This document shows positions 45,323-56,829 of a stretch of DNA of 64,000 bases, piece after piece. Under the pieces are notes generated by a model, which worked only from the letters and a program-made list of their open reading frames with translations, did no database searches and was not told the origin of the DNA. Location of the stretch: the NCBI GenBank assembly GCA_018433865.1, contig JAHDQJ010000003.1, positions 62,001 to 126,000 of the forward strand, written 5' to 3'. Position 1 is the first letter of the stretch, and each line of letters opens with the position of its first letter. Source of the DNA: Spirochaetales bacterium (GTDB lineage: Bacteria > Spirochaetota > Spirochaetia > Sphaerochaetales > Sphaerochaetaceae). Both the position numbers and the translations under genes were made by a program.

Positions 45323-47794
45323 ATGGAACGTATAGATATCGTGAAACGGTTCGGCAACAGATTGTTGACCTTGGAGAATCCCGCACGCTACATCGGCGGC
45401 GAATATGCATTCGGACCGGTACATGACGTACAGGATACCGATATCAGCGTCGGCATCTGCTTTCCCGATCTCTATGAGATCGGCATGTCGAACAATGCGG
45501 TACGCATCCTCTGCGACCTGGTCAATTCCATCGAACCGGCTGTCGCATGTGATCGCGTGTTTGCCGTCGCAGGAGACTACGAACAGTTCCTTCGCGAGCA
45601 GGATGTCCCCTTGCATACCATCGGACAAGGCATTCCGTTGCATCAGTTGGATCTGTTGGGCATTTCCATCGGTTATGAATTGGCTGCAACGAACATCCTG
45701 CAGGTGCTCGAGCTCGGAAGGATTCCCCTCCATGCCGTCGAGAGGACCGATGCACACCCGATCGTGATCGCAGGAGGTCCGGCGATCACAAATCCCCTTC
45801 CATTCTCCCCATTCTTCGATTTCGTGTTCATCGGTGAGGCGGAGGCCGGCTTGGCCGAAATAGTGCAGGTGATCAGGAACGGAAAGCATGCCCGATCGTC
45901 AAGGAAAGAGACCATCGACCGGCTCAAGGAATTCCCGTTCCTCTGGTATCCTGGAAAACCTCTGGCCATCCGTGCAATCGATGACGGTTTCGCCTCCGAT
46001 GCGAAACCGACCTTCGGTTCGTATACCGTGCCGCACTTCAAGGTGGCACAGGACAACGGTGTGGTGGAGATCATGCGCGGGTGTCCGAACGGCTGTCGTT
46101 TCTGTCATGCAGGGCAATACTACAAGCCGTACCGCCAGAAGGCACTCGAAGATGTAAGCCGACAGGTTGAGCAGCATGTACATCAATTCGGTTACCGCGA
46201 GATCACCCTGAGCTCACTCTCCTCAGGCGACCATCCCCAGATACGTTCGATGATCGAACATCTGAATTCCCGGTTCTCCGCCGACCATATATCCTTCTCG
46301 CTTCCATCGCTGAAAGTCAGTTCGTTCTCCCTCGGAATTCTCGAGCAACTCTCAGAGGTACGCAAGAGCGGACTTACCTTTGCTATAGAGACTCCGTTGC
46401 CTCGATGGCAACGCGCGGTGAACAAGGAAGTTCCCGTGCAACAGGTGATCGATATCATCAGGGAGGCGAAGAGCCGCGGATGGAGACTTGCCAAGTTCTA
46501 TTTCATGGTCGGCCTGCCCTTCATCGATCCCGAAGAGGAAAAGGATGCGATCACCGCATTCTTGCGTGAAGTATGGGAAGCGACGAGGATCGGCATGAAC
46601 ATCAACATCGGGACGTTCATACCGAAGCCCCATACGCCGTTCCAGTGGGCACCGCAGATGCATCCGGACAAGTCCAGGGAACATCTGATGGCGATCAAGC
46701 GTTCCATCCAGCAGGAGGTCAAGGGAGCGAAGGTTTCGTACCACGAACCGTGGGTCTCCTACATCGAGGGAATCATCAGCAGGGGGGATCGTCATGTCGC
46801 CCGCCTGATCGAGCTGGCATACCGGAACGGGTGCAGGCTCGATGCATGGGACGAACATCTCGACAAGGAAGCATGGAAGCGTGCGATCGCAGACATGGAG
46901 GTTCCCGTCGATCGGTGGATGTTTGCCGAACATGATCCCAAGGAGACGCTACCGTGGGATTCCGTGTCGATGGGTGTTTCGAAAGCATACCTGAGACATG
47001 AATGGGAGTTGGCGAGGGAAGCGGTGCTGACCGACCGTTGTGCCTCCGAATGTTCCATCCCGTGCGGAGTCTGTGGGAGAACACACCGTGTCTTCGATGT
47101 TCCGCAGCTCGATGAAGAACCATCCCTGCCGAACTTCCGGCCGGTCGCCGAATCCAAGGAGCCTTCACGCCCTGTTCTGTTCTTCTATAAAAAGGAGGGC
47201 AGGGCCACCTTCATCTCCCATATCAGCGTGATGCGCATCTTTGAACAGACTTTCCAACGATCGCGGATACCGGTCACCTTCACACAAGGCTACAACCCAA
47301 AACCGAAGATGGAATTCGTGAACCCGCTCTCCACCGGGATCAGCGGGTCGGAGGAGGTCCTCCTCGTCGACATCCATGGCGGTACCGCGTTGGATGCGCA
47401 AGAGACAGTAAAACAGCTCAATTCAATGGTTTCCGCAGGATTCGTGTTCACCCGCATGATAGCGTTCGATACCGATCGTAGGATGACGCTGAGCAAACAT
47501 ATGGGCGGAAGTGTCTATACCATCAGCGATGTGCGCGACGATGCCTACGTGCAGGTACTTGATGAATGGACAAAACGATGTGGTGTGGGAGTCTCTGTCG
47601 CAAAGCTCTCCATCGCGGGGAAGCCTACCTACACGGTGATCATGGAAGGAGAAAAGAATCCGGTGAAGACGCTCTTCGGAAACGTTCCGGACAAATTCGC
47701 GGTGCTCTCCTTTATGAAGATACACCGCGAATCGATATTCATCGGCCGCTATGGTGACGGACCGGTAGGCTATGCATCGGTAGGATCGATGTGA
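45323..47794 (+). CDS. Fused radical SAM (TIGR03960-type) and DUF2344 (TIGR03936-type) protein
   Basis: The 823-residue protein has an N-terminal B12-binding-like region (residues 40-180, IGMSNNAVRILCDLV and GGPAITNPLPFSPFFDFVFIGEAE), a radical SAM core with the Cys triad CPNGCRFC (Cys254, 258, 261), and a C-terminal DUF2344 domain (from about 610, PVLFFYKKEGRATFISHISVMRIFEQTFQRS). No DxHxxG cobalamin His is seen. These two families often lie side by side; here they are one chain. The reaction is unknown, though the families are linked to RNA modification. ATG 45323 has GGAGAG upstream; earlier frame lies in rnpB. Confidence 0.85.
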   Translation: MERIDIVKRFGNRLLTLENPARYIGGEYAFGPVHDVQDTDISVGICFPDLYEIGMSNNAVRILCDLVNSIEPAVACDRVFAVAGDYEQFLREQDVPLHTIGQGIPLHQLDLLGISIGYELAATNILQVLELGRIPLHAVERTDAHPIVIAGGPAITNPLPFSPFFDFVFIGEAEAGLAEIVQVIRNGKHARSSRKETIDRLKEFPFLWYPGKPLAIRAIDDGFASDAKPTFGSYTVPHFKVAQDNGVVEIMRGCPNGCRFCHAGQYYKPYRQKALEDVSRQVEQHVHQFGYREITLSSLSSGDHPQIRSMIEHLNSRFSADHISFSLPSLKVSSFSLGILEQLSEVRKSGLTFAIETPLPRWQRAVNKEVPVQQVIDIIREAKSRGWRLAKFYFMVGLPFIDPEEEKDAITAFLREVWEATRIGMNINIGTFIPKPHTPFQWAPQMHPDKSREHLMAIKRSIQQEVKGAKVSYHEPWVSYIEGIISRGDRHVARLIELAYRNGCRLDAWDEHLDKEAWKRAIADMEVPVDRWMFAEHDPKETLPWDSVSMGVSKAYLRHEWELAREAVLTDRCASECSIPCGVCGRTHRVFDVPQLDEEPSLPNFRPVAESKEPSRPVLFFYKKEGRATFISHISVMRIFEQTFQRSRIPVTFTQGYNPKPKMEFVNPLSTGISGSEEVLLVDIHGGTALDAQETVKQLNSMVSAGFVFTRMIAFDTDRRMTLSKHMGGSVYTISDVRDDAYVQVLDEWTKRCGVGVSVAKLSIAGKPTYTVIMEGEKNPVKTLFGNVPDKFAVLSFMKIHRESIFIGRYGDGPVGYASVGSM

Positions 47795-49764
47795 CAGTGG
47801 TAGTAATGGGTATCCGAGATCCTAACCATCGGAGGGTACTCTCGTGCACATATCTCACCGACCTGACGGTGGCAACGACCGGCGAAGGGACATCCCTTGG
47901 GTTTCTTCGTCGGATCGGGCAGTTGGCCTCCCAGCGCTATCGCCGTGCGCTGTTTCGTCGGATCCACCTCGGGCACCGCTGAAAGCAATGCCTCGGTATA
48001 GGGGTGGAACGGAGGGGCCATCACCTCATCCCTCTTGCCGTACTCGCAAATCTTCCCTGCATACATCACCATGATATGGTCGCTCAGGTAATTGATCACA
48101 TTCAGGTCGTGTGAGATGAACATGTAGGCCACTTGGGTCTCCACCTGCAGATCGTTGAGCAGGTTCAGTACCGAAGCCTGTACCGAGACATCTAGCGCGC
48201 TTGTCGGTTCATCGCACACGATCAGTTCGGGTGAAATGGACAAGGCCCTGGCGATCGCCACACGCTGCTGTTCTCCTCCGCTCAACTGTCGGGGCTTCTT
48301 GGACAGGTATTCCTTTCCGAGATCGACTTTCTTCAGCATGTCGATGATCATGGTCCGCCTCTTGCCCCTGTCGTCTATGTGGGCGAGACGTTTCATCGGG
48401 CGGGCGATGATCTGTTCTACCGTGTGGGAAGGATTGAGACTCCTGCCAGGGTTCTGGAAGATGAGCTGGATGTTTTTCAGGGTCTCCTTGGATCGTTTCC
48501 TCCATCCGACAGTGATGTCGGTACCATCGAAAAGAATCCTCCCTTCGGTCGGCACATGCAATCCGCTCACCATGTGTCCGGTGGTACTCTTCCCACATCC
48601 CGACTCACCCACTATGCCGATCACCGAACCCGATTGCACCGAGAAATCGATGCCATTCACGGCATGGACCTTCCTCCGGTTTCCGTAGATCTTTTGCAGG
48701 CCGTCAATCTTCAGCAACTCCTTCGGCTGGAGTGGACCGTGCACGTCTTCCCGTTTTTTCGGAATGAGCTTCACTGCGGTACTGTCCGGGATGTCGGTCG
48801 CGTAGGCCCTGTCGCATGCGGCCCAATGACGATCGGAAACTTCCCTGATCCCATAGGAAAGCTCGCAAGTATCTGTCCGCTTGTCGCAACGGTCAGCGAA
48901 CGGACATCCTGTTTCCTCCGCCCCTCGCATCTTCACATAGCCATCGATCGTATTCAGCTTTGTCTTTTCCTTGACGACAGAACCACGCGGCATGCAATTG
49001 ATCAAGGCTCGGGTGTAGGGGTGCAGGGGATGTTCGAATATCTGCTGTTTCGGACCGCGTTCCACGATCTCACCGTTATACATCACTACCACATGCTCGG
49101 CGACCTTGTTGATGACACCCATATCGTGAGAGATATACATCAGGGACATCTTCAGTTTCTCCCGGAGATCCTTGATGGAATCGAGTATCACTGCCTCGGT
49201 CGTCACGTCGAGCGCGGTGGTGGGTTCGTCCAGGATCATGAGATCAGGCTTGCAGAGGATAGCCATCGCAATGCAGATGCGTTGCTGGATTCCTCCACTT
49301 ACTTGGTGGGGATACCGACGTGCGATACTCTTCGGATCACCGAGGTTCATGAGCCGGAGTGCTGCGATGGTTGCCTCCCGCGCCTCCTTCTTATTCAGCT
49401 TCTGATGGTGCATCCCCACCTCGTCCAGCTGGAATCCGATGGTGAGCGCAGGATTCAAGGAAGAGTAGGGATTCTGGAAAACCATTGCGATCCTGTCTCC
49501 TCGATACTTCTCCATCTCACGCTCCGACTTTAGCAGAAGATCTTCCCCCTTGAACCTGATCGAACCTTCTACCGATGCATTCTGTGCAAGATAGTGCATG
49601 ATGGAGAAAGAGAGCGTGCTCTTTCCGCACCCGGATTCCCCGATGATGCCGATCGACTCATCGTATCCTATCGAAAGCGAGACATTGCGCACTGCGGAGA
49701 ACAGACCATCGAAGGTCTTGAACTTCACGTGCAGGTTTTCTATGTCGAGAATATTATCGTTCAT
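47770..49764 (-). CDS. Peptide-type ABC transporter, fused double ATPase (DppD-DppF type)
   Basis: The 664-residue protein joins two oligopeptide-family ATPases: GIIGESGCGKST near residue 43, VSGGIQQRICIAMAI and LMILDEPTTALD in the first half, and GIVGESGCGKST near 390, LSGGEQQRVAIARAL and LIVCDEPTSALD in the second. Each half ends with the CPFADRC/CPFAGRC Cys segment of the DppD/OppF family. The fusion resembles GsiA. It overlaps the radical SAM gene by 25 nt at the 3' ends and starts within the permease gene. Confidence 0.92.
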   Translation of the reverse strand: MNDNILDIENLHVKFKTFDGLFSAVRNVSLSIGYDESIGIIGESGCGKSTLSFSIMHYLAQNASVEGSIRFKGEDLLLKSEREMEKYRGDRIAMVFQNPYSSLNPALTIGFQLDEVGMHHQKLNKKEAREATIAALRLMNLGDPKSIARRYPHQVSGGIQQRICIAMAILCKPDLMILDEPTTALDVTTEAVILDSIKDLREKLKMSLMYISHDMGVINKVAEHVVVMYNGEIVERGPKQQIFEHPLHPYTRALINCMPRGSVVKEKTKLNTIDGYVKMRGAEETGCPFADRCDKRTDTCELSYGIREVSDRHWAACDRAYATDIPDSTAVKLIPKKREDVHGPLQPKELLKIDGLQKIYGNRRKVHAVNGIDFSVQSGSVIGIVGESGCGKSTTGHMVSGLHVPTEGRILFDGTDITVGWRKRSKETLKNIQLIFQNPGRSLNPSHTVEQIIARPMKRLAHIDDRGKRRTMIIDMLKKVDLGKEYLSKKPRQLSGGEQQRVAIARALSISPELIVCDEPTSALDVSVQASVLNLLNDLQVETQVAYMFISHDLNVINYLSDHIMVMYAGKICEYGKRDEVMAPPFHPYTEALLSAVPEVDPTKQRTAIALGGQLPDPTKKPKGCPFAGRCHRQVGEICAREYPPMVRISDTHYYHCHIDPTDA

Positions 49765-50584
49765 GTATGAGTACCTTGCTGACGAAGTCAGAGAATATGG
49801 AGATTGCTATCACCAGGGAAGCGATGGCAAGTGCAGGGAACAGGACCGCCCACGGGGCATTGCTGATGATCGGTTTGTTCTCGATGACCATCATTCCCCA
49901 GTCGGGTGTAGGCGGTTGCATGCCCACACCAAGGAAACCGAGGGATGCGACCATCATGATCGAATAGGCGAACCGTGCGGTCGCCTCGACGATGATCGGC
50001 CCTGTCGTGTTCGGGAGAATCTCGACAAACATGATGTAGAGGTGGCTTTCTCCCCGTATCCTGGCCGCGGAGACATACTCCTGGCTCTTCTCGGTCAACA
50101 ATACACCACGAGCTACTCGTGCGGTCGCAGGAACGAATGCGATGGAAACGATGATCGTCAGGCTTCCGATGTTCGAATCTCCGAGAATGCCAAGGATGAC
50201 CATGGAAAGCACCAGCGGAGGAATGGCCATCAGGATATCCATCGCACGCAGGAATGCCGTATCAGCCTTTCCGCCGAAGTAACCGGCAGAGAAACCGATG
50301 ATCACTCCTATCACCGTGGAGAACAGGGAAGTCATCAACGCGACCGTGAGGATCGAGCGGCTTCCGTAGACGACTCGGGCCAGGATATCACGGCCGAGGC
50401 TGTCTGTTCCCAACAGGTGTCCATTCACTCCCGGAGCAACCATCTGGTGATCCGAGTCCATCTGCGTGTGCGTGAACGGAACCAAATTCGGCCCGAAGAA
50501 CGCGAGGAACAGCCAAACGAGCATGACTGCGATTCCCGCGATTGCCAGCGGATGTTTTTTCAGTTGATAGAGCAGATACTTCAT
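49754..50584 (-). CDS. Peptide-type ABC transporter permease (DppC-like)
   Basis: The 276-residue membrane protein starts MKYLLYQLKKHPLAIAGIAVMLVWLFLAF and has the cytoplasmic coupling loop VSAARIRGESHLYIMFVEILPNTTGPIIVEA (EAA motif). GLLGTDSLGRDILARVVYGSR is the family N-terminal signature. About six helices. Start ATG 50584 overlaps the upstream permease stop (ATGA); the longer frame extends into that gene. With the partner permease it forms the import channel. Confidence 0.9.
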   Translation of the reverse strand: MKYLLYQLKKHPLAIAGIAVMLVWLFLAFFGPNLVPFTHTQMDSDHQMVAPGVNGHLLGTDSLGRDILARVVYGSRSILTVALMTSLFSTVIGVIIGFSAGYFGGKADTAFLRAMDILMAIPPLVLSMVILGILGDSNIGSLTIIVSIAFVPATARVARGVLLTEKSQEYVSAARIRGESHLYIMFVEILPNTTGPIIVEATARFAYSIMMVASLGFLGVGMQPPTPDWGMMVIENKPIISNAPWAVLFPALAIASLVIAISIFSDFVSKVLIHER

Positions 50585-51549
50585 CGCTGGCCTCCTTGGT
50601 ACCGTATGCGCGGATTCAGATAACTGTACATGATATCGGTGACCATCGTGGAGAGCGAGTAGATCACCGTGATCAGCAAGACGCACGCTTCGATCAACGG
50701 AACATCGCGTGTCTTGATCGCGGTCATCAACAACGAACCCATCCCGGGAAATCCGAACAAAGTCTCCACGACGACCAGTCCCCCGAACAGCCAACCCATG
50801 TTCATGCCGATGATCGTGATCGTCGGCAACAGTGCGTTCTTCAAGGCATGCCGGAAAATCACATAGCGTCTGGGCATTCCCTTGAGGATCGCAGCCCTCA
50901 CATAATCGGAATTCATCACAGAAATCATGGAAGATCTCTGCATGCGTGATACGTAGCCGAACATCACGAACGTTATGGAGAGGGCAGGGAGGACGAGGAT
51001 ATCGAGATTCCCGAAGAGCGTTTCCCCGATGGGAATGACACTTACGATGGGAAACCAGTCAAGTGTTACTGCGAACACGGTGATCAGGATGACCCCCGAT
51101 ACGAATTCAGGGAGTGCCATCGTGGCGAGACCGAAGAAAGAGATGACAGAATCGGTCGGTTTCTTCTCCTTCACTCCCGCGAGTACTCCGAGGAAGATGG
51201 AGAGTGGGACGAAGAGGATGAATGCCGCCAAGGCAAGGACCAACGAATGTCCGACCCGTCTCCACAAGATGCTGTTGATCGCGACACCTTGCATGTAGAT
51301 CGACTCTCCGAGATCTCCGGTGGCCAATGCACCCACCCACCGCACGTAACGCTGCAGTACAGGATCGTTCAGCCCCCGAGCTTCTCGCAACGCAGCTACG
51401 GCTTCCTCGGTTGCACTCTGTCCGAGAATCATCTGTGCGACATCTCCAGGCATGATCTCGACAAGCATGAAGATGATGAATGACATGATGACCAGGGTCG
51501 CAAGAAGCGACCCCAGTCTCTGAAGAACCAATCGTGTGATCCTGTTCAT
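50581..51549 (-). CDS. Peptide-type ABC transporter permease (DppB-like)
   Basis: The 322-residue protein begins RITRLVLQRLGSLLATLVIMSFIIFMLVEIMPGD, the DppB/OppB signature, and has the EAA loop VRAAILKGMPRRYVIFRHALKNALLPTITIIG. Six helices are likely. It starts at ATG 51549, overlapping the substrate-binding protein stop, and is the first permease of the set. Confidence 0.92.
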   Translation of the reverse strand: MNRITRLVLQRLGSLLATLVIMSFIIFMLVEIMPGDVAQMILGQSATEEAVAALREARGLNDPVLQRYVRWVGALATGDLGESIYMQGVAINSILWRRVGHSLVLALAAFILFVPLSIFLGVLAGVKEKKPTDSVISFFGLATMALPEFVSGVILITVFAVTLDWFPIVSVIPIGETLFGNLDILVLPALSITFVMFGYVSRMQRSSMISVMNSDYVRAAILKGMPRRYVIFRHALKNALLPTITIIGMNMGWLFGGLVVVETLFGFPGMGSLLMTAIKTRDVPLIEACVLLITVIYSLSTMVTDIMYSYLNPRIRYQGGQR

Positions 51550-53054
51550 CGGATATCCATGTACTTGTACTGCGGAATCATCGTGAGCGGCTGCCTATAG
51601 CCGATGACCCGGTCGTTGATCGCCACAAGATACGGTACCTGTACATTGATGAGCGAACCTTCCTCGAAGAACAGCTGTTGCAGCTCATGATAGTAGCCGG
51701 TACGCTTCTCGACATCGACCTCAGCTGATATCTTGTCGATCAACGCGTCGACACGCGAATCGCTCAAGTGCGACTCATTCCATGATCCTCCGGTCTTGAA
51801 AGCCAGGGCTAGCAGCATCGAAGGATCGATCCTTCCACCCCAGCCGGTAATGGAAAACGGAACGTTGAGCCAGTACTGCGAGAGATAGATGTCACGAGTG
51901 AATCCCTTGAGCTCGATGTCGAACCCCGCGGGTGCCGCCAGCTCCTGGATCGTCTGGGAAAGTTCCTTGCCGAAAGGGTGATCCGATGCATAATACAGTT
52001 CGACCGATACACCGTGAGGATACCCGGCCTCAGCGAGCAATTGCTTGGATTTCTCGATGTCCCTTCCACGCAGTGGCAGGTCCTTGTACTCGGCGAGCAT
52101 GTTCATGATAGGGGTCTCGTTGTAGTAGATCCCATCATTGAGATCCATCTGTGCTACGCTTCTCGCGATGACTTGGGGATCCATCGCATACTTCAGGGCG
52201 AGACGCACCCGGTTGTCATCGAACGGCTTCTGGTCGACCGCCATCGAGATGAACCGTTGTTCCTGATACGGACTGATGACCGAAATGCCATCGACCGAAT
52301 CCAACCTGTTCTTGATGACGGGAGTGACGAAGGGGACGACATCGACACGATCCGACTCGAGCATCGAGATGCTGGCGTCGATATCGGCGACGAAATAGAT
52401 CGACAACCTGTCTACCTTCGGAAGGTCAGTTGCCCAGTAGGCGGTGTTGCGGACAAGCGCAGCAGATTCCTTCGGGATGAGTTGTTGCATGACGAACGGT
52501 CCGGTTCCCATAGGCTTGGACTCACCGAGCTTCGCATAGTCATACGAGCTTGAGAGCATCGGCATGTTGTAGTCGGTCAACTGATAGATGAACGTGGGCC
52601 TACTTTCATGCAGTCGGATCACCACCGTGTGGGGATCGGGAGTCTCGATGGAGGAGACGACCTCGAAATCCTGCTTTTTCAGGTGTCCGATCGCCGGGTC
52701 CTGGGTCCTCTCGATCGTATACTTCACATCCTCTGCATCGAAAGCGGTACCGTCATGGAATTTTACTTCCTTCCGAAGATTGAATGTCCAAACGGAACCG
52801 TCATCGGTACTCCACGAAGTGGCAAGTACCGGGTCGATCGCACCGGTCTCGGTATTTATCTCCACAAGATATTCATAGATGGATGAGTTCATCGAGAACG
52901 CCTGGCCGTCCCAGACTCCCGGTGTGATCAAGCCCGGTACCTGTTCCGCAATCCTGATCGTCTTGGGTTCCGGACCCGTTTCCTTGCCACCACCGGCAAA
53001 TACCATGGCAGATGCCACCACAAAGACAAGCACAAGTAACATTACGCGTTTCAT
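51546..53054 (-). CDS. Peptide/nickel-type ABC substrate-binding protein
   Basis: The 502-residue protein (SBP family 5) has a signal peptide (VMLLVLVFVVASAMVFAGGGKE) with no lipobox Cys, then WTFNLRKEVKFHDGTAFDAEDVKYTIERTQ, the family's main signature, MGTGPFVMQQL and DNRVRLALKYAMDPQVIA. It would bind peptides or another solute; the sequence does not settle which. AGGAGG lies 4 nt before the ATG. Its promoter at 53201-53230 follows the BusR-like gene, so it can be expressed alone. Confidence 0.88.
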   Translation of the reverse strand: MKRVMLLVLVFVVASAMVFAGGGKETGPEPKTIRIAEQVPGLITPGVWDGQAFSMNSSIYEYLVEINTETGAIDPVLATSWSTDDGSVWTFNLRKEVKFHDGTAFDAEDVKYTIERTQDPAIGHLKKQDFEVVSSIETPDPHTVVIRLHESRPTFIYQLTDYNMPMLSSSYDYAKLGESKPMGTGPFVMQQLIPKESAALVRNTAYWATDLPKVDRLSIYFVADIDASISMLESDRVDVVPFVTPVIKNRLDSVDGISVISPYQEQRFISMAVDQKPFDDNRVRLALKYAMDPQVIARSVAQMDLNDGIYYNETPIMNMLAEYKDLPLRGRDIEKSKQLLAEAGYPHGVSVELYYASDHPFGKELSQTIQELAAPAGFDIELKGFTRDIYLSQYWLNVPFSITGWGGRIDPSMLLALAFKTGGSWNESHLSDSRVDALIDKISAEVDVEKRTGYYHELQQLFFEEGSLINVQVPYLVAINDRVIGYRQPLTMIPQYKYMDIR

Positions 53055-53200
53055 AATTCCTCCTGAACGTATGATTTTCGGTTCCGGACACGAAAAGGGG
53101 TGTATCGTAAGTGGAAGAACGTGCACCGCCTGCAATCATTTCCGCATCGGGAAACGTTCCGGGTACATACCGGATCAGGCTGTCCATAACCGACAACCTT

Positions 53201-53230
53201 ATTAAACTATAGAGATTGGCAGTTTGTCAA
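53201..53230 (-). promoter_or_regulatory. Promoter of the peptide transporter operon
   Basis: On the minus strand a perfect TTGACA (53225-53230), an 18-nt spacer and TTTAAT (53201-53206). It leaves a leader of about 140 nt; no known riboswitch or clear terminator fold was seen in that leader. Confidence 0.55.
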
Positions 53231-53336
53231 GCGGCACTTCATGCGTAGGTTATACGGATACAATGCAAAGACATATGTGATATATCCGATCAGGTCGGAA
53301 GCAGATGGGGATGCTCAGTATCGAGTGTACAGTAGG

Positions 53337-53978
53337 TCAGGAAAGCAATTCTTCGACCAGCGGACGCAAGTGTTGGTCCCCGACAAGGACCAAGGAATCC
53401 GATGGTTCCAAGTACATATCCGGACCGGGGGAGAGGATGATGGAACCGTTTCTCCTGACCGCGATGACCGTGGCATGCGTACGTTGCCAGAAATCGAGCT
53501 CCTTGAGCGTTTTCCCGATGGCACCGGAATCCTCACGAACCGCACACTCGAACGTGAAGAATGGATTGCTCGCCGTGAAGCGTTCGGTAGAATCGATCAG
53601 CGTACGGGTAATTTCGAACAGTTCCCGTTCGATCTTCTCATGCGACTCGATCAGTTCACGCATCCGCGCGAGAAGCGTCCCCGTATGCTCGCGATTGTCA
53701 TGGTTTGCGATGTACTTGTGGGCATTTTCCGTGGAGCGGACCCTCACACCGCTGTTCTGGAACACCTCGACGACCTGCATCTCCTCGAGGAGGGAGAATG
53801 CACGACGGATCGTCTCAGGGGAGACTCCGTACTCGCTGCTCATGAGGGATCTTCCCGAAAGCTTCTTTCCTTCAGGAATCTCACCGTTCACGATACGATG
53901 AGCGATATCGAGTGCGATCTTCGCATAGATTGCGATGGATTCCCGTTTTTTCCTGGCCGGTTTCTCGATCTGTTCCAT
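53337..53978 (-). CDS. GntR-type regulator with RCK_C domain (BusR-like)
   Basis: The 213-residue protein has a GntR winged helix (residues about 13-83, IYAKIALDIAHRIVNGEIPEGKKLSGRSLMSSEYGVSPETIRRAF), a helical linker and an RCK_C/TrkA_C domain (about 135-213, FECAVREDSGAIGKTLKELDFWQRTHATVIAVRR and LEPSDSLVLVGDQ). This order is that of BusR, a c-di-AMP-responsive repressor of osmolyte uptake in Lactococcus and streptococci. Here no osmolyte transporter is adjacent; the nearest target is the peptide transporter downstream. Start ATG 53978 has AGGA 8 nt upstream. Confidence 0.78.
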   Translation of the reverse strand: MEQIEKPARKKRESIAIYAKIALDIAHRIVNGEIPEGKKLSGRSLMSSEYGVSPETIRRAFSLLEEMQVVEVFQNSGVRVRSTENAHKYIANHDNREHTGTLLARMRELIESHEKIERELFEITRTLIDSTERFTASNPFFTFECAVREDSGAIGKTLKELDFWQRTHATVIAVRRNGSIILSPGPDMYLEPSDSLVLVGDQHLRPLVEELLS

Positions 53979-54035: not shown

Positions 54036-54860
54036 TCATCCGCGTTCCTCATCCTTGATCTCCTCCCACAATGCGTTCAATGCATCCACATGTTCCCAGG
54101 AGAGGGGAATGCCTCGCTCATTACCGAGTCGTGCAAGTTTGTTGAAACGGGAACGAACCTTGCGGTTGCTCCGATGCAATGCGACGGACGGATGTATCTT
54201 CAGGTACCTGGCGAGATTGACGACCGCAAAGAGCAGATCGCCCAATTCCTCCTCGACATGATCCGGATGCTCATCGCGATGGGCAATCGCATCAAGCAGT
54301 TCCCTTCGTTCCTCATCGACCTTGTCGATGACTCCCTGGATATCGGGCCAATCGAAACCGACCTTGCGCATCTGTTTCTGTATTTCCCAGGCTTCCTCAA
54401 GCTTCGGCAATGATCTTGGCACTCGGCTGAAGAAATCCTCATCTTGAGATTTCTTGCCCTCGACATTCACCTTGATGGAGTTCCACAGGTCGAGGACCTC
54501 CGAACTGTTGTTCGCAACCGCCTCGGAGAATACGTGCGGATGCCTGCGTATGAGTTTTGCACAGACATCATTGAGTGCCTCGACGATGTTGACATCCTGG
54601 TGTTCCTCGTGCATCTCCAGGAGCATCATCGCGTTGAGCAGCACATCGCCGATCTCCTCACGCATGTGATCGGAATCTTCGCTCATCACCGCATCGATAT
54701 ATTCATAGGTTTCGTCGATAAGATTGGTCGCGACGTTCTTGTAATTCTGCTCACGGTCCCACGGACATCCTTCGGGGCTGCGGAGCATCGTGACGATGGC
54801 GAACAGCTGCATGAGCGCGTCATCCAAGGTTTTCTTGGCTTCATAGGTATAGGAAATCAT
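54036..54860 (-). CDS. mazG: MazG nucleotide pyrophosphohydrolase
   Basis: MazG hydrolyses nucleoside triphosphates to monophosphates. The 274-residue protein has two MazG domains: CPWDREQNYKNVATNLIDETYEYIDAV with EEIGDVLLNAMML (about 30-80) and EERRELLDAI with HVEEELGDLLFAVVNLARYL (about 200-235). The EExxE and EExD metal-binding groups are present in both halves. The ATG at 54860 follows a TATACT box by 6 nt without a Shine-Dalgarno. The longer frame runs into the divergent regulator and was rejected. Confidence 0.92.
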   Translation of the reverse strand: MISYTYEAKKTLDDALMQLFAIVTMLRSPEGCPWDREQNYKNVATNLIDETYEYIDAVMSEDSDHMREEIGDVLLNAMMLLEMHEEHQDVNIVEALNDVCAKLIRRHPHVFSEAVANNSSEVLDLWNSIKVNVEGKKSQDEDFFSRVPRSLPKLEEAWEIQKQMRKVGFDWPDIQGVIDKVDEERRELLDAIAHRDEHPDHVEEELGDLLFAVVNLARYLKIHPSVALHRSNRKVRSRFNKLARLGNERGIPLSWEHVDALNALWEEIKDEERG

Positions 54861-54866
54861 GAATCG

Positions 54867-54894
54867 AGTATACCTGAATCGTCCCCAGTGGAAA
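54867..54894 (-). promoter_or_regulatory. Promoter for mazG
   Basis: On the minus strand TTTCCA (54889-54894), a 16-nt spacer and TATACT (54867-54872); six bases then separate the -10 from the ATG. Confidence 0.45.
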
Positions 54895-54930
54895 AGGGTA
54901 CACGATCTTGCGGATCGTGCAGATATGCTG

Positions 54931-54958
54931 TTGACAATCAGTATATTCTGTATATACT
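54931..54958 (+). promoter_or_regulatory. Promoter of the GntR/ABC operon
   Basis: A perfect TTGACA (54931-54936), a 16-nt spacer and TATACT (54953-54958). Confidence 0.7.
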
Positions 54959-54970
54959 GTACATATACAG
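54939..54970 (+). promoter_or_regulatory. Interlocked operator for the YtrA-type regulator
   Basis: Two perfect inverted repeats overlap: CAGTATAT-5 nt-ATATACTG (54939-54959) and CTGTATAT-7 nt-ATATACAG (54948-54970). They cover the spacer, -10 and start region, which suggests autorepression. Confidence 0.65.
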
Positions 54971-54986
54971 TAAGGAGGGTAAAGCC

Positions 54987-55364
54987 CTGGATATCATTCT
55001 GAGCAATACCATCGATCAACCGATCTACGAACAGATCGCGAACCAGATCAAGGCACAGATCATCAGCGGTACCTTGGAGGAGGGGTCCCTGCTTCCTTCG
55101 ATCCGCAACCTGGCGAAGGACCTGCGCATCAGCGTGATCACGACGAAGCGATCCTATGATGAGCTGGAACGGGAAGGCTACCTCCTGACAATTCCTGGAA
55201 AAGGAACCTACGTAGCACTGAAGAATACCGAGATCATACGAGAGGAGTATCTGAGGAGGATCGAGGAGCACCTCAAGCACATCATCCGCCTCTCGGTGTA
55301 CTGCAATCTCGATGAAGAGGAGATATGTATGATGTATCGACTGTTGCAAGAAGGAGACAACTGA
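54987..55364 (+). CDS. YtrA-type GntR regulator, apparent CTG start
   Basis: The 125-residue protein has the GntR winged helix (DQPIYEQIANQIKAQIISGTLEEGSLLPSIRNLAKDLRISVITTKRSYDELEREGYL) and a short helical tail of the YtrA subfamily, which commonly regulates its own ABC operon. The reading frame has no ATG, GTG or TTG near the N-terminus; CTG 54987 lies 8 nt after GGAGG and gives the usual length and MDIILSN-type start. The ATPase gene begins 2 nt after the stop. Upstream frame is not coding. Confidence 0.8.
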   Translation: MDIILSNTIDQPIYEQIANQIKAQIISGTLEEGSLLPSIRNLAKDLRISVITTKRSYDELEREGYLLTIPGKGTYVALKNTEIIREEYLRRIEEHLKHIIRLSVYCNLDEEEICMMYRLLQEGDN

Positions 55365-55366
55365 TC

Positions 55367-56215
55367 ATGGATGCGATCAGATGTACTGACTTGAAAAAGA
55401 GTTATGGGGGTTTTTCGTTGCATCTTGAGTCATTCGTGGTTCCTGAGGGAAGCATCGTGGGACTGATAGGAGAGAATGGGGCAGGGAAGTCGACCACCAT
55501 CAGGTTGCTGATGGGTCTGGCATCTGCGGATGGAGGTTCCATCGAATTGTTCGGGAAGCAGGTCCCTCATGCAAACGTGCAACAGAAGGAAGACATAGGA
55601 TTCGTCATGGAAGATGCATGGCCACCTGCGTTGCTGGATCCGGTCAAGACAGGAAAAGTCATGGCCCGCATCTACAGCAATTGGGACTCTGCCACCTACG
55701 ATGCACTGTTGGAATCCTTGGCTATCCCGAAGGCGAAACCCTTCAAGGATTTCTCCCACGGCATGAAGATGAAACTGGTGCTCGCCATAGCGCTCAGCCA
55801 TCGGGCCAAGTTGCTGATCCTCGATGAACCGACGTCCTCGCTCGATCCGGTGACCAGGGATGAGATACTCTCCATCCTCATGGATTTCACTCGGGAGGAG
55901 AACCATACGATCCTGTTTTCGAGCCACATCCTCAGTGACATCGAAAAAGTATGCGACTACGTCACGTACCTGCACCAAGGAAAGATCCTGATCAGTGGAG
56001 AAAAGGATGAACTTGAAGATCGTTATGCAATCGCCAGTTGCACGCCAGGCCAGTCTTCCGCTCTCGACAGCGAAAGGATACTGGGAAGGAAAGACTCTCC
56101 GTACGAGGTGAAGGTATTGATGAGACGCGAGGATGTTCCCGCCTTCATGCACATCCTTCGTTTCGATCTGGAAACGATGATGATTCTGTTCGCCCAAGGA
56201 GGAAACGGAAGATGA
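55367..56215 (+). CDS. ABC transporter ATPase (YtrB/CcmA-like)
   Basis: The 282-residue ATPase has GLIGENGAGKSTTIRLLMGL, signature FSHGMKMKLVLAIAL (the degenerate form common in this class), Walker B LLILDEPTSSLD and the H-loop FSSHILSDIEK. The C-terminal 80 residues are the DrrA/YtrB-type tail. With the permease it forms an exporter controlled by the adjoining regulator; the substrate is unknown. AAGGAG precedes the ATG. Confidence 0.9.
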   Translation: MDAIRCTDLKKSYGGFSLHLESFVVPEGSIVGLIGENGAGKSTTIRLLMGLASADGGSIELFGKQVPHANVQQKEDIGFVMEDAWPPALLDPVKTGKVMARIYSNWDSATYDALLESLAIPKAKPFKDFSHGMKMKLVLAIALSHRAKLLILDEPTSSLDPVTRDEILSILMDFTREENHTILFSSHILSDIEKVCDYVTYLHQGKILISGEKDELEDRYAIASCTPGQSSALDSERILGRKDSPYEVKVLMRREDVPAFMHILRFDLETMMILFAQGGNGR

Positions 56216-56829
56216 GTGCCCTGTTGCTCAAGGACTGGTATCAGCTGTCACGACAGTCGAAACTTACGATCATCATGGCAGCCGTGATGATTTTCATAGG
56301 CGTTGCTAGCTCCTCGGTATTCTACGCAGCGATCGGGGCGCTTCTCTGTGTGATGCTGCCGATGACCAGCTTGGCGTACGACCAGATGCATCACTGGGAT
56401 CGCTATGTCATGGGATTGCCGGTAACACGCAAGGATGTGGTATTGAGCAAGTACGTGCTCGCCATCCTCGGGATCCTGGCATCGACCGTGGTGCTGATGG
56501 TGTTCGGATTGATCATGCAGATTCGTGGAAGCATCGCATTCGATACGATCCTGTCTGCCTTGTGGACTCAACTTGCCGTGGGTCTGTTCTTTCTTTCCGT
56601 GAATTATCCCATCGTCATCAAGATCGGATTCGAGCGTGGCAGGATATGGTACATCATCATCACGATGCCGATCATGGCATTCGCCGGACTGCTTGGCAAC
56701 ACGATCGTCCCTGATCGGGCGGCCCTTGCCGTATCTTCCGGTTCTTTCTTTGTGCTGCCGATACTCATGTTCTTGGTGTTATTGTCGTACAGATTGTCGG
56801 TACGTTTCATGGAACGCAAGGAATATTGA
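56212..56829 (+). CDS. ABC-2 type transporter permease
   Basis: The 205-residue protein has six probable helices and opens MSALLLKDWYQLSRQSK, a start common in ABC-2 permeases, with YDQMHHWDRYVMGLPVTRKDVVLSKYVL as the conserved cytoplasmic loop. It is the membrane half of the exporter. The start overlaps the ATPase stop (ATGA) and has GGAGG upstream. The gene ends 19 nt before an orphan promoter-like element. Confidence 0.85.
   Translation: MSALLLKDWYQLSRQSKLTIIMAAVMIFIGVASSSVFYAAIGALLCVMLPMTSLAYDQMHHWDRYVMGLPVTRKDVVLSKYVLAILGILASTVVLMVFGLIMQIRGSIAFDTILSALWTQLAVGLFFLSVNYPIVIKIGFERGRIWYIIITMPIMAFAGLLGNTIVPDRAALAVSSGSFFVLPILMFLVLLSYRLSVRFMERKEY

Follow-up and report, generated by a model that had tools for sequence, protein, structure and literature searches.

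BusR is a bacterial repressor that turns off the uptake of osmolytes (salt protectants) at high c-di-AMP. In the window, the whole 64,000-nucleotide stretch of Spirochaetales DNA analysed here, a busR-like gene lies beside an ABC operon of the peptide type, raising the question of whether c-di-AMP may control peptide import in this organism. The neighbours named in the initial annotation were confirmed, in that mazG is located upstream of busR and genes for an SBP_bac_5 protein, two permeases and a fused OppD-OppF lie downstream (Table 1). Since SBP_bac_5 proteins bind many solutes, 'peptide' is uncertain as the substrate. Divergent from mazG, positions 54444-56829 (+) encode a small GntR regulator (YtrA-like by eye), then an ABC ATPase and a membrane protein; in neighbourhood clustering a small GntR-like ORF was seen again beside mazG in several relatives.

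Table 1. Features of the busR-opp locus, in window coordinates.
Feature	Position	Strand	Basis
mazG, 57 bp upstream of busR, conserved neighbour	54036..54860	-	ORF, Pfam, neighbourhood map
busR-like gene (GntR winged helix, long helix 98-137, RCK_C; 213 aa)	53337..53978	-	ORF, Pfam, PDB matches, model
Sigma-70-like opp promoter: TTGACA 53225-53230, 18-nt spacer, TTTAAT 53201-53206	53201..53230	-	By eye, with aligned promoters of relatives
Predicted BusR-type operator, inverted repeat AACTGCCA-N21-TGTCGGTT	53188..53224	-	Half-sites 53217-53224 and 53188-53195
SBP_bac_5 solute (peptide)-binding protein (502 aa; its ATG preceded by an AGGAGG ribosome site)	51546..53054	-	ORF, Pfam
OppB-type permease	50581..51549	-	ORF, Pfam
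OppC-type permease	49754..50584	-	ORF, Pfam
Fused OppD-OppF ATPase, two ABC and two oligo_HPY domains	47770..49764	-	ORF, Pfam

The BusR-family protein and the c-di-AMP signal

The busR-like ORF opens with an ATG at 53978, and its stop codon ends at 53337. The combination of GntR and RCK_C in the BusR domain order, as first read from the translation, was borne out by Pfam matches above the cut-off of 27 bits for GntR (residues 18-80, 44.3 bits) and TrkA_C, equivalent to RCK_C (residues 146-203, 53.2 bits), and by a full-length match to BusR. The top PDB sequence match, S. agalactiae BusR (7b5t, E 6.2e-32), is near end-to-end, query residues 16-204 aligning with chain residues 13-201 without gaps and with a coiled-coil linker of the same length; the second, 7wjg (E 8e-30), is also near end-to-end and is titled S. 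mutans BusR in the structure search. The AlphaFold single-chain model (mean pLDDT 82.8, pTM 0.41) comprises a winged helix, the long helix and an RCK_C fold, and the first 13 Foldseek PDB rows for this model were BusR chains. Whole-chain TM scores against these chains were low (0.35-0.43) because the domain arrangement differs in the single-chain model; the RCK_C part alone gave 0.84-0.86 to the c-di-AMP-bound domain 7b5u. The product is thus a BusR-family protein.

The c-di-AMP pocket and autoinhibitory switch residues of S. agalactiae BusR have been identified, and R38, R53 and G72 are DNA contacts (PMC8517857). In the numbering of that protein (query number = paper number + 5), Y13, R38, R53, G72, W159, A164, T165, P179, G180 and P181 are identical in the window protein, and the substitutions are K36S, K54R, G70N, I153L, G154K, N157D, V158F, H160Q, I166V and F182D. 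Within the pocket, A164, T165, G180 and P181 are the same, with I153L, I166V and V158F on the one hand and G154K, N157D and H160Q on the other; in the autoinhibitory patch, Y13, W159 and P181 are retained and position 182 (F182/Y182 in BusR) is Asp. We compared these positions in an alignment of 37 BusR-family rows, 13 from Sphaerochaetaceae and 24 from elsewhere. W159 is present in 13/13 and 22/24 of these, respectively. Position 182 is variable, with Tyr in 20/24 of the other rows and 1/13 of the Sphaerochaetaceae rows, and Phe in 0/13 of the latter. From this comparison, binding of c-di-AMP by the window protein is likely, and its autoinhibition may be differently tuned.

The substitutions might alternatively be taken to mean that the protein represses opp directly without responding to c-di-AMP, sensing ionic strength or another ligand through an altered RCK_C pocket. 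F182D, H160Q and N157D do fall in the polar rim and the autoinhibitory patch, and DNA binding by L. lactis BusR is reported to respond to ionic strength (PMC10243994). However, Gln occupies position 160 in 12/13 Sphaerochaetaceae rows and in 22/24 of the others, of which many adjoin betaine operons. H160Q is therefore a common change in the BusR family and does not single out a lineage that has lost the ligand. W159, A164, T165 and the PGP sequence are retained and the genome encodes a cyclase, and we regard loss of the c-di-AMP response as improbable.

Since c-di-AMP control presupposes the messenger, the genome was checked for a diadenylate cyclase, whose absence would have counted against the initial proposal, and one CdaA-like gene was found. 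The single DAC match (139.8 bits, Pfam cut-off 27) lies in a 271-aa protein with a hydrophobic membrane N-terminus as in CdaA. The following gene, which we take to be YbbR/CdaR-like, had no Pfam match. Further RCK_C proteins are encoded in the genome, one of them KtrA-like and adjoining a TrkH/KtrB-like permease (names given by reading rather than by family search), and another carrying two RCK_C domains. A search directed at OpuAC alone among betaine carriers found no OpuAC betaine-binding protein in the genome.

A predicted operator over the opp promoter

The initial annotation also assigned the operon its own promoter about 100 nt downstream of busR, in agreement with the TTGACA-N18-TTTAAT sequence that we located by eye, beginning 107 and ending 136 nt past the busR stop. 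A -35/-10 consensus scan did not return this promoter among its matches because the scan demands A at the second position of the -10 box. The published GAC-N22-GTC motif gave 19 matches in the window against 27 expected by chance, none of them near busR, and was dropped as a search motif in favour of the footprint from intergenic comparison. When the busR-SBP gaps were compared, TTGACAAaCTGMCA-N20-TTGTCRGTT appeared as a block common to the window and seven relatives, and the same repeat adjoins busR in many Clostridia. Within it, the predicted operator of the SBP5/oppB/oppC/oppDF operon follows the -35 box and takes in the spacer, the -10 box and the point where transcription is expected to begin, so that a bound protein would block polymerase. 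One half of the operator reads GCC in the window and in many relatives, and GAC in others. The DNA first proposed for a binding test, 53201-53336, leaves the right half-site of the operator (53188-53195) outside.

A de novo word search of 61 Bacillota busR loci yielded AACTGACA-N21-TGTCAGTT, together with inner words, far over shuffles; some other top words were ignored as probable coding sequence. The matrix was first seeded with the consensus known by then from spirochaetes, and the de novo search in Bacillota gave the same consensus. Sites with <=4/16 mismatches were present in 33/61 Bacillota loci compared with 12/305 shuffled copies, and the operator matrix was trained on those 33 sites only, most of the loci being beside betaine transporters. 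Applied to the 64-kb window, this matrix placed the opp promoter site first: it scored 24.6, the runner-up site reached 12.9, and no site in 30 shuffled windows exceeded 20.7. A strict operator pattern had one exact match (0 mismatches) in the 2.9-Mb genome, and the reversed control had 0. The half-site distance is 23 bp in the window and 22 bp in two relatives (G099 and G104); since it is 23 in 27/33 and 22 in 6/33 Bacillota sites, 22 bp is not family-defining. Two other searches were discarded: the loose motif GACAA-N19..21-TGKCAS was powerless, its 15 matches in the own genome equalling the 15 of the reversed control, and the strict pattern at two mismatches was uninformative (226 matches versus 140 for the control).

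Distribution of the operator at opp and betaine operons

The conservation of this arrangement was surveyed in 119 Sphaerochaetaceae genomes (busR orthologue E < 1e-20, a threshold set here; SBP orthologue E <= 1e-100). A busR orthologue occurs in 29 of these genomes, and 22 encode an orthologue of the SBP. busR is present in 20/22 SBP-positive genomes compared with 9/97 others, and the operator lies upstream of SBP in 21/22 (18.3-27.7 with the Bacillota matrix), counts that are not independent because several genomes of genus g3 are near-identical. The exception, G031, scores 15.0 upstream of SBP; busR was not found there and the left half-site has decayed, as expected after regulator loss. 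In G114, an assembly in 550 contigs, the operator is retained and busR was not detected. busR and SBP are about 190-205 kb apart or on separate contigs in eight genomes (G058, G062, G066, G070, G082, G088, G091 and G097), several of them closely related to one another and hence not eight independent events, and the operator is still at opp in all eight.

Gene order was followed in 80 loci kept of 543 encoding a relative, the nearest being from Sphaerochaetaceae and Spirochaetales (best identity 76%). The neighbourhood map, made by ORF clustering, covers 75 of the 80, since the five with a busR ORF missed by the ORF finder are absent from it. The order mazG-busR-SBP5-oppB-oppC-oppDF recurs, complete or to the contig edge, in L036-L041, L043 and L085, and as far as SBP only in L042; two extra ORFs separate mazG from busR in L036 and L037, and L038 starts at busR. 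In L045-L049 busR adjoins mazG and opp is not beside it. Several loci carry additional SBP_bac_5 genes. A second, more diverged copy lacking an operator of its own sits between mazG and busR in L041, L044 and L085, and neither SBP paralogues just upstream of busR (L241-L243) nor a broken SBP copy (L175) had an operator. In L173 (from G031) two SBP_bac_5 genes stand side by side, by eye, where relatives carry busR between them. L290 (G001:C156) has two more SBP_bac_5 genes with variant operators in which GGC stands in place of the usual GTC half-site (18.6 and 13.9), perhaps extra BusR targets.

In sister genomes that lack this opp, the same operator is found at betaine operons. A tight pattern gave one conserved site each in G054, G023, G002, G106, G110 and G037, before an OpuC-type ATPase gene whose operon ends in an OpuAC protein in G054 and G002, the two that were fetched; the first four genomes have busR, which was not detected in G110 and G037. 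With the Bacillota matrix, the OpuC-type operators of G054 and G002, and that of G097, which came from the matrix scan and is a near-copy of the same sequence, reach no more than 13.7-15.1, one half-site having a different flank. In G097 the operator precedes both opp and the OpuC-type operon. In G045 a divergent busR is the last gene of an OpuC-type operon, and sites scoring 27.7 (perfect) and 25.5 (near-perfect) are found in front of this operon and next to another OpuAC gene. G038 has a site scoring 22.1 that adjoins busR and an OpuAC fusion. Mutual exclusion of opp and OpuAC was considered and rejected: most opp-positive relatives carry some OpuAC, G097 has operators at both, and in G017, G033 and G066 the OpuAC operons, which are of the ProX type, gave no good site in the matrix scan (best 12.5, 9.6 and 11.8).

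These data bear on a further reading, in which the promoter block is the site of another regulator or reflects promoter constraint alone, and busR just happens to sit beside mazG. Part of the block's conservation does come from TTGACA and the -10 box, and G114 has an operator where no busR was detected. Against this, the motif was found de novo beside Bacillota busR with GAC/GTC half-sites as in solved BusR-DNA complexes, it tracks the presence of busR, being weakest in G031, and it also precedes opu operons, making a bystander role very improbable.

Bacillota busR usually precedes an ABC operon with a CBS-domain ATPase and an OpuAC protein, that is, betaine uptake. Among the 48 Bacillota rows of our tree, 32 are linked to betaine transporters, 3 to an amino-acid transporter and 13 to no recognisable target, the labels being drawn from neighbouring clusters and in some cases set by hand (14/74 rows overall are without a recognisable target); 8 near-duplicate loci and the 5 loci with a missed busR ORF were left out. 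The opp-linked BusR proteins fall together with those from mazG loci that lack opp in a single group (20 rows, support 100/100). Taken with this single BusR group, operators at opp, at opu or at both indicate that within one family the same lineage of regulator is matched with the import of peptides, of betaine or of the two together. Whether a c-di-AMP/BusR osmotic switch has been relocated within Sphaerochaetaceae from betaine to peptide uptake is, in our judgement, evenly balanced. Two other arrangements were seen among the relatives. In a Clostridiaceae locus (L057) busR is flanked on one side by an OpuAC betaine operon and on the other by an opp-type operon, whose SBP5, permease and ATPases were assigned by cluster. 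In L068, L075, L076, L082 and L093 (Erysipelotrichaceae and related) busR follows a GGDEF-EAL gene (Pfam on L068) rather than a solute transporter, and no good operator was found in L068.

The imported solute may, on the other hand, not serve as an osmolyte at all, in which case c-di-AMP would act as a nutrient signal, adjusting the cell's supply of nitrogen or amino acids by way of peptide import. busR precedes SBP_bac_3 amino-acid transporters in Treponema and some Clostridia, and the authors of PMC8316131 give amino-acid metabolism as an alternative reading of their opp suppressors. Where a target of Bacillota busR can be recognised, however, the gene mostly stands in front of betaine transporters, as do several busR genes of Sphaerochaetaceae, and we consider a nutrient role possible but rather doubtful. 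It differs from the osmotic reading in physiological role alone, and the likelihoods that we attach to the two overlap.

Proposed mechanism and comparison with known systems

The position of the operator on the opp promoter, its persistence at opp away from busR and its sharing with betaine operons make the link between BusR and opp much stronger than adjacency. With a cyclase in the genome and a BusR-type operator on the opp promoter, the initial proposal, that c-di-AMP may govern the import of solutes and that the peptide operon is the likely target, has gained support. We conclude that the window protein is probably a c-di-AMP-dependent, tetrameric repressor of the BusR family acting on opp, and hence on peptide uptake, instead of on betaine uptake. 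What the sequences establish is the protein family, the operator with its conservation between genera and phyla and its occurrence at opp and opu operons, and the cyclase gene. The ligand, the direction of control and the physiological role are taken by analogy from streptococcal and lactococcal BusR; the tetrameric state, the binding of c-di-AMP, repression of opp, an osmotic role and the identity of the substrate are inferred. In such a scheme the CdaA-type cyclase encoded elsewhere in the genome would supply cytoplasmic c-di-AMP, which would bind between two RCK_C domains and free the winged helices; the tetramer would then grip the two half-sites, about three helical turns apart, and block transcription of SBP5-oppB-oppC-oppDF by occupying its promoter from the -35/-10 spacer through the -10 box to the start. 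A fall in turgor or c-di-AMP would lift repression and allow the uptake of peptides as osmolytes or osmolyte precursors.

If this is correct, the messenger c-di-AMP would be tied directly to peptide import. As far as the available portions of PMC5919688 and PMC8316131 go, loss of diadenylate cyclase repeatedly selects opp mutations in Listeria, GBS and Borrelia turicatae, for a reason that the authors leave open. The suppressors described there are opp mutations, with no connecting transcription factor reported, whereas the window offers a candidate regulator. In the titles and abstracts of the open-licence literature we found neither a direct c-di-AMP-opp regulator nor a link between BusR or c-di-AMP and a peptide transporter in spirochaetes. 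A c-di-AMP-type repressor with a predicted operator on the opp promoter makes the connection between opp and c-di-AMP testable, and the short fragment 53188-53230 is suited to a direct binding test. The operator, predicted with the Bacillota matrix, would carry BusR-type control beyond Bacillota.

The window system belongs to the BusR family and, with its operator on opp and an OpuAC-free genome, falls outside the BusR-BusA betaine system. In comparison with BusR of S. agalactiae and L. lactis, which acts on betaine uptake (busA/OpuA), the window protein has the same domain order and length, retains W159 and the pocket residues A164, T165, G180 and P181, keeps an ungapped register with the S. 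agalactiae protein from the winged helix through the coiled coil to RCK_C, and likewise has a bipartite inverted operator over the promoter. It differs in its SBP5/Opp target, in a half-site distance of 23 rather than 22, in K36S, G70N, H160Q and F182D, and in the lack of OpuAC from the genome. Clostridia and sister Sphaerochaetaceae with busR beside OpuC-type operons share the operator, but there the target is a betaine transporter, unlike opp in the window. Finally, Treponema-like loci (L056, L077 and L090, the last with the motif) resemble the window in having a BusR-family gene directly upstream of a solute ABC operon; they differ in that the transporter is of the SBP_bac_3 amino-acid type (tested on L056) and the regulators occupy a separate branch of the tree.
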